DNA of 41,032 nt from a gamma proteobacterium symbiont of Bathyaustriella thionipta. Its GTDB lineage: Bacteria > Pseudomonadota > Gammaproteobacteria > GRL18. The stretch is taken from assembly GCA_025656775.1 (NCBI GenBank), contig JAHXHI010000304.1:1-41032 (forward strand), written 5' to 3'. Below are positions 26,356-34,901 of the stretch, piece after piece. How positions within the stretch are numbered: position 1 is the stretch's first letter; each line of letters begins with the position of its first letter. Below the pieces are notes generated by a model. The model saw nothing but the letters and a program-made list of their open reading frames with translations, was not told where the DNA came from and searched no databases. Position numbers and translations under genes: made by a program.

Positions 26356-26553
26356 ATGATGGCCACAATTATTAATCTTAAACAATTTAAAAAACAACAA
26401 CTCAAGAAAAAAAATAAAGCCAGAACACTGTGCAATAGTGGTTTTCACCAATGGGAAATTATTGATAAAAATCAATTTGATGTAAAAAAAGGCCAATTAA
26501 TAACCACCTACCGATGTAAACAGTGTAATAAAATTAAAACAACTGCCACATAA
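26356..26553 (+). CDS. Small conserved-looking zinc-ribbon-like protein
   Basis: 65 aa; CNSGFHQWEIIDKNQFDVKKGQLITTYRCKQCNKIKTT (C..H and CxxC). Confidence 0.7.
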   Translation: MMATIINLKQFKKQQLKKKNKARTLCNSGFHQWEIIDKNQFDVKKGQLITTYRCKQCNKIKTTAT

Positions 26554-26760: not shown

Positions 26761-27498
26761 ATGACTATTTTAACATTCAAATTCCGTCCTGTACCCTATT
26801 TTATACTGACTGCTTTGATTTTATTGGCAACGGGCTGTGCCTCCACAACACCGGATGGTGAAGTCAATGATCCCATCGAATCAGTAAACCGCAATATTTA
26901 CGAGTTTAATGAAGGTTTTGATCGCATTATTTTAAAACCTGTTGCTACAGGTTATCAAAAATTACCCACTCCAGTACAAACAGGTACCCATAATTTTTTC
27001 AGCAATCTTGACGATGTGGTGGTGGTGGTCAATGATATTTTACAGCTCAAACCCGAGCAGTTTACTTCTGACACATTACGTTTTTCAGTGAATACCGTAT
27101 TTGGTCTTCTGGGCCTAATTGATATGGGTACACCGATGGGTTTACCTAAACATCATGAAAGCTTTGCTGATACACTCGGTTACTGGGGCGTTGCTTCAGG
27201 TCCTTATATCGTTCTGCCAATTCTGGGCCCCAGCAGTGTTCGTGATGCTCCGTCCCTGGTAATCGACTTTCTGGTACATCCTCTGAATCAGGTATCACCC
27301 GCATCGGCAACCATTACCCTTGCTTCTGTCAGAGCAGTGGATATTCGTTCCGAATTACTTAAAACAACCGATATAAGAGACGAGCTCGCTCTTGATCCAT
27401 ATATCTTTACCCGTGAATCTTATTATCAGTGGCGTCAAAACAGAGTTTATGACGGTGAACCTCCTAAGGTCATAATCGAAGATTTTGAAGATTTTTAA
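26761..27498 (+). CDS. mlaA: Outer-membrane lipoprotein MlaA (VacJ)
   Basis: Lipobox LLATGCAS; NDPIESVNRNIYEFNEGFDRIILKPVATGY, FSNLDDVVVVVNDILQ. Confidence 0.96.
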   Translation: MTILTFKFRPVPYFILTALILLATGCASTTPDGEVNDPIESVNRNIYEFNEGFDRIILKPVATGYQKLPTPVQTGTHNFFSNLDDVVVVVNDILQLKPEQFTSDTLRFSVNTVFGLLGLIDMGTPMGLPKHHESFADTLGYWGVASGPYIVLPILGPSSVRDAPSLVIDFLVHPLNQVSPASATITLASVRAVDIRSELLKTTDIRDELALDPYIFTRESYYQWRQNRVYDGEPPKVIIEDFEDF

Positions 27499-31332: not shown

Positions 31333-31423
31333 CCACTTTTATTTAAAAACAAGTTATTGATAGTTAACAATAATATCTTTTATTATAAAAATAATTAACT
31401 TTTTTGATCCTTATCAACTGCAA

Positions 31424-31438
31424 TGGCACGTAATTTGC
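31424..31438 (+). promoter_or_regulatory. Sigma-54 (-24/-12) promoter upstream of rpoN
   Basis: TGGCAC-GTAAT-TTGC, matching the TGGCAC-N5-TTGC consensus; about 115 bp upstream of the rpoN ATG, same strand. Confidence 0.8.
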
Positions 31439-31489
31439 GCTACTATTAAATCAAGGAACACTTATTTTCAACGGTATGAGCCCGATTAA

Positions 31490-31521
31490 TAGCGATGGAC
31501 ACAACTTAAAACCTATCGCTA
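31490..31521 (+). promoter_or_regulatory. Stem-loop in the rpoN 5' leader
   Basis: TAGCGATGG ... CC(T)ATCGCTA inverted repeat, no following T-run. Confidence 0.55.
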
Positions 31522-33218: not shown

Positions 33219-33542
33219 ATGCAAATAGATATAACCGGACACCACATCGATATCACAGATTCTCTGCGTGATTATGTCAACCAGAAAATGGAACGTGTTG
33301 AACGTCACTTTGGTATTGTTAGTAAAAGTCATGTTATTTTAAGTGTAGAAAAACAACGCCAGAATGCAGAAGCCACGCTGATGGTTAAAGGAAGTAAAGT
33401 GTTTGCTGAAGCTGTCGATGAAGATATGTATTCAGCCATCGATAGTTTAATTGACAAGCTTGATCGTCAAGTGAAAAAACATAAAGAAAAAATGACCGAT
33501 CACCACCGAGGTGAAGTGAGTCTTAAATCACACGAATTATAG
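33219..33542 (+). CDS. hpf: Ribosome hibernation promoting factor
   Basis: MQIDITGHHIDITDSLRDYVNQKMERVERHF, DMYSAIDSLIDKLDRQVKKHKEK. Confidence 0.96.
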   Translation: MQIDITGHHIDITDSLRDYVNQKMERVERHFGIVSKSHVILSVEKQRQNAEATLMVKGSKVFAEAVDEDMYSAIDSLIDKLDRQVKKHKEKMTDHHRGEVSLKSHEL

Positions 33543-34364: not shown

Positions 34365-34901
34365 ATGAAAAAAAATAGACTTCCTGAACATGGTGTACTT
34401 ATCCAGGTCAGCCACATGGGTATCTATCTGACAGGTGATAGCGGAGTGGGTAAATCAGAAATTGCATTACAGTTGATCCATCAGGGTGCCAGACTCATTT
34501 GTGATGATGCACCCGAATTAACAACGAATATCAATACAAAAAAAATACTCGGTACCTGTCCTGAGGGCTTTTATGGCCTGATGCATATACATGATCTGGG
34601 TCTCATCAATCTTTTGGATATTATTGGCCAACAAAGTTTCAAGAGCAGTCAACCGATAGATTTTGTCATTGAACTGGTTAAAGCTAATGATAAACAAGCA
34701 ATCATCACTCAGCAAAATCCACAACATCTATTAACACCAGACTATCAAAAATGGCATTATCAGAGTTGTTCGGTTTCAGGTATTCGCATACACTTATACC
34801 CTGATAGAAATATACCTCTAATCATTAACACAGCAATTGAGCAATTTATCAGGTTTAAAGACTTAATTAATACCAAGTCAGGCCATCAACTTAAAGGGTA
34901 A
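34365..34901 (+). CDS. hprK: HPr kinase/phosphorylase, short form (C-terminal domain only)
   Basis: HGVLIQVSHMGIYLTGDSGVGKSEIALQLIHQGARLICDDAPEL; 178 aa, N-terminal domain absent. Confidence 0.88.
   Translation: MKKNRLPEHGVLIQVSHMGIYLTGDSGVGKSEIALQLIHQGARLICDDAPELTTNINTKKILGTCPEGFYGLMHIHDLGLINLLDIIGQQSFKSSQPIDFVIELVKANDKQAIITQQNPQHLLTPDYQKWHYQSCSVSGIRIHLYPDRNIPLIINTAIEQFIRFKDLINTKSGHQLKG

Follow-up and report, generated by a model that had tools for sequence, protein, structure and literature searches.

Closely set FNR, sigma-70, and sigma-54 elements upstream of rpoN suggest an FNR-activated, self-repressed promoter in an order of Gammaproteobacteria

The rpoN locus and its promoter elements

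The window analyzed here, a 41,032-nt stretch of DNA from a gammaproteobacterial symbiont of Bathyaustriella thionipta, encodes the sigma-54 factor RpoN, with hpf, ptsN, and rapZ downstream of it (Table 1). An hprK-type open reading frame at 34365–34901 is short (178 aa), and its homolog in genome G017 (L096, 3917–4480, open-ended) has an extra N-terminal stretch. A further rpoN-hpf-ptsN cluster, partial and on a separate contig (L100), is present in G017 and is either a paralog or contamination.

Table 1. Features of the rpoN region, in coordinates of the window; counts of 21 refer to the genomes of genera g1 and g4
Feature	Position	Strand	Basis or remark
IHF-type consensus site, WATCARNNNNTTR on minus, CAAGTTATTGATA on plus	31350–31362	-	rpoN-side flank AT-rich
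FNR box TTGATCCTTATCAA, perfect TTGAT-N4-ATCAA	31404–31417	.	genome enrichment and conservation
Weak -35-like hexamer CTGCAA	31418–31423	+	17 nt upstream of -10; invariant in 21/21
Sigma-54 -24/-12 site TGGCAC-GTAAT-TTGC, TGGCACGTAATTTGC	31424–31438	+	exact match and conservation
Sigma-70 -10-like hexamer TACTAT	31441–31446	+	invariant in 21/21
Predicted transcription starts	31450–31453	+	31450 sigma-54, 31452–31453 sigma-70; inferred from geometry
rpoN, RNA polymerase sigma-54 factor, 521 aa	31552–33117	+	NF004595 674 bits (cut-off 513), TIGR02395
hpf	33219–33542	+	TIGR00741; probably co-transcribed with rpoN

The lptB-rpoN gap of 219 nt contains a sigma-54 motif with the GG-N10-GC of a -24/-12 element. 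The initial annotation had correctly reported this motif on the rpoN strand, and it is the sole exact match in the window. The bare motif is unremarkable, given that the window holds three matches with at most one mismatch versus 3.04 expected; it is the conservation described below that lifts it above chance. Genome-wide, TGGCAY-N5-TTGC occurs 21 times versus five times for a reversed control, and many of these matches stand before genes, some of which we take to be nif genes of the nifH, nifE, and nifB types. The base 3' of TTGC is G at rpoN and T in most intergenic sites of the genome. Counting from the -12 C at 31438, geometry alone predicts a sigma-54-dependent start that would leave a leader of approximately 102 nt.

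Two elements close to this motif had been overlooked, an FNR box 6 bp upstream and the hexamer TACTAT 2 bp downstream, which agrees with TATAAT at just four of six positions. The distance from box to hexamer is 23 nt, placing the box center between -41.5 and -42.5 according to which start is used. Class II FNR promoters have a box centered near -41.5, and the box and -10-like hexamer at rpoN show the geometry of a putative promoter of this FNR/sigma-70 type. FNR boxes are tenfold enriched in the genome (30 versus three in a reversed control), which encodes a candidate oxygen sensor, a four-cysteine FNR (L087) with the sequence CKECSLHQLC, a later cysteine, and an FNR-type recognition helix, as judged by eye. 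A second perfect FNR-type box, TTGATAAAAATCAA at 26462–26475, lies about 300 nt before an open reading frame at 26761 that resembles mlaA/vacJ.

Conservation within the order and across the class

We found rpoN in 23 of the 24 genomes of the order, which in this collection is a single family and whose metagenome-assembled genomes are incomplete. The conservation in relatives on which the motif of the initial annotation had been made to depend is present: 22 of 23 rpoN loci keep it, 19 of those 22 with the -12 C, although these genomes are related and such counts are not independent. In 21 genomes of two genera (g1 and g4) a block of approximately 45 bp precedes rpoN, TTTGAyCnnnATCAACTGCAATGGCAynnAwTTTGmGsTACTAT, within which TGGCA and TTG are invariant and both FNR half-sites are always kept, with one base changed from T to C in two genomes. 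The -12 C is present in 18 of the 21; the other three have an A (TTGA), a change that may weaken the sigma-54 site and with it the RpoN input. A third genus, g3 (L096), retains the FNR box and TGGCAT-N5-TTGC, followed at an equal distance by a weaker hexamer; in a fourth (L097) the block is missing and rpoN starts approximately 50 nt after lptB. In g3, rpoN is divergent from ccoN (L096, 1–1462), and the common gap contains two FNR boxes.

Between the FNR box and the -10 hexamer, 19 of 23 positions are invariant at rpoN versus 3 of 22 in the ccoN counterpart, a small control that was usable in four genomes only and for which G010 may have a different promoter. Because the rpoN segment is so much more invariant, something besides FNR and sigma-70 polymerase appears to constrain it, and the sigma-54 site matches this constraint. 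The four predicted elements and their fixed spacing are well supported by conservation.

Outside the order, we compared the last 200 nt upstream of rpoN in 108 regions. TGGCAY-N5-WTGC is present on the rpoN strand in 22 of these and on the reverse strand in three; further upstream the counts fall to one forward and none reverse, and Markov shuffles gave zero to one. Of the 21 distinct sites, 15 are followed after 2 nt by a TAnnnT hexamer; 0.6 would be expected, and 2000 shuffles never gave more than four. The -35-like hexamer is loosely CTGYAN in other Gammaproteobacteria that have the motif. As in class I occlusion, the sigma-54 site lies within the sigma-70 footprint, at a fixed 2-nt offset to the -10 element that holds class-wide. 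Outside the order, just 1 of 109 rpoN upstream regions has an FNR box, and the strict composite pattern occurs in three of 369 genomes of the class, each time at rpoN and in a member of this order. Given the class-wide overlap and the near confinement of the box to this order, the shared placement of sigma-54 site and -10 looks either ancestral or repeatedly acquired, and this order seems to have added the FNR box.

Upstream region and leader

Of 19 genomes tested, 15 carry the exact IHF consensus in an unchanged position relative to the FNR box (offset -54), compared with 5% of shuffled sequences, and the TGAT of the site is invariant in 20 of 20. Overlapping it is an exact inverted repeat, TTATTG-N8-CAATAA at 31354–31373, that had been proposed as an enhancer; its best counterparts in 20 other genomes have two to four mismatches, making the repeat specific to this genome and removing it as a candidate. 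Since the codon identity of lptB does not rise toward the end of the gene either, the upstream regions compared in the order contain no conserved repeat or extra block beyond the IHF-type site that might serve as an enhancer for a bEBP. We treat this absence as weak evidence because enhancers can be distant or species-specific. We also considered a second sigma-70 promoter, TTGATA-N18-TATTAT at 31357–31386, and rejected it because its TGAT is conserved and its -10 is not.

The leader hairpin of the initial annotation did not hold up: the 9-bp stem (31490–31498/31513–31521) folds in the window with z = -1.93, 11 of 200 shuffles fold equally well, and it was not seen by eye in relatives, whose leader length is highly variable. 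A leader segment, AAGGAACACTTATTTTCAACGGTATGA (31454–31481), is kept in several g1 genomes and missing in others.

Models of rpoN control

We lean toward a model in which FNR activates a sigma-70 promoter of rpoN, and a sigma-54 site in the core of that promoter lets RpoN repress its own synthesis. Transcription would start near 31452, and sigma-54 polymerase that has no activator would sit at the -24/-12 site in the spacer of this same promoter as a silent closed complex, shutting out sigma-70 polymerase. A rising level of RpoN would lower rpoN transcription, low oxygen acting via FNR would give a higher set point for RpoN, and the IHF-type site upstream probably shapes the region. Both the binding of each element and net repression as the direction of the RpoN effect are what we infer from sequence. 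The location of the site in an apparent sigma-70 core with a perfect class II FNR box makes promoter occlusion a better fit than transcription driven by sigma-54, and we favor autorepression because an overlapping sigma-54 site can repress (PMC4551910) and RpoN of P. aeruginosa occupies DNA upstream of rpoN (PMC8855297). Against this model we count the three genomes in which A replaces the -12 C, the imperfect -10 hexamer, and the fact that IHF-type sites are also typical of bEBP-activated sigma-54 promoters.

The IHF-type site and the near-consensus -24/-12 element, both conserved in the order, would also suit positive autoregulation, in which a sigma-54 polymerase at 31424–31438, activated by a bEBP bound upstream and aided by IHF bending, drives rpoN-hpf, with FNR beside the -24 as an anti-activator or independent input. 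The genome encodes at least 12 strong PF00158 proteins, and a 2025 survey, as excerpted, takes sigma-54 motifs at gammaproteobacterial rpoN genes as autoregulation (PMC12316311). We nonetheless consider this reading unlikely: it leaves the fixed -10 overlap unexplained, the G after TTGC departs from most intergenic sites of the genome, and neither the end of lptB nor the inverted repeat provides a conserved enhancer. Accordingly, the sigma-54 autoregulation proposed by the initial annotation survives in part, with the site and some autoregulation backed by conservation in the order and class and the activation by a bEBP left without a conserved repeat or enhancer.

Somewhat less likely still is that both promoters are productive from nearly one start, FNR and sigma-70 serving when oxygen is low and sigma-54 responding to nitrogen or other signals; the predicted starts are just 2–3 nt apart and every element is conserved, but binding of either polymerase would bar the other and there is no sign of a specific activator. 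We find it improbable that this is a plain FNR-dependent sigma-70 promoter with an incidental sigma-54 match. The FNR box and -10 do vary least in g1 and g4 and the -12 C is lost in three genomes, yet the spacer is near-invariant and lineages that have no FNR box show enrichment of the same motif with an unchanged offset. Extending the self-repression model to the class, it seems to us an evenly balanced question whether Gammaproteobacteria share a widespread design, an rpoN sigma-70 promoter with a sigma-54 operator in its core that would provide repressor-free homeostasis, to which one order added a class II FNR box that would make total RpoN oxygen-dependent.

In Pseudomonas, RpoN self-regulation is negative. 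By ChIP-seq, RpoN of P. aeruginosa occupies DNA upstream of rpoN, and the same report states that it controls its own expression and cites Kohler et al. 1994 for self-regulation in P. putida (PMC8855297); our model would share both traits, and the excerpted text mentions neither an FNR box nor the sign of the effect. Schaefer et al. 2015 reported that at overlapping sites in E. coli the sigma-54 holoenzyme competes for binding and thereby represses the sigma-70 promoter; every such case had the -12 C (PMC4551910). Their class I overlap resembles the rpoN promoter in having a sigma-54 site inside the sigma-70 footprint and a -12 C; it was observed in vitro for argT, chaC, mdfA, and patA, and the excerpt makes no mention of the promoter of rpoN itself. 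Such repression of overlapping sigma-70 promoters is also discussed in a Neisseria study (PMC6755734). A precedent for FNR-type input is Bradyrhizobium rpoN1, a direct target of FixK2 switched on in low oxygen and thus likewise under a CRP/FNR-family activator; it differs in that the activator is FixK2 rather than FNR and the host is an alphaproteobacterium with two rpoN genes, and the excerpted text describes no sigma-54 overlap (PMC6515984). The class-wide survey likewise found motif enrichment upstream of gammaproteobacterial rpoN; unlike us, it reads these genes as sigma-54-transcribed, and its excerpt makes no mention of the -10 overlap (PMC12316311). Each ingredient has a precedent, be it self-regulation by RpoN, occlusion of promoters by sigma-54, or control of an rpoN gene by the FNR family; the combination of all three and the fixed geometry appear to be new.

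The level of RpoN is commonly assumed not to vary, regulation being a matter for activators. If the self-repression model is true, that level would be coupled to oxygen and to RpoN itself, so that sigma-54 supply would be actively set; the mechanism implied by the fixed overlap of two sigma sites is simple and testable, and many genomes can be searched for it.

We also considered and rejected a link of the element to nitrogen fixation: nearly all genomes of the order keep the element, yet nifH scores above cut-off in only two of 24, G000 and G007 (L133, L134). Nitrogen fixation is patchy in the order.
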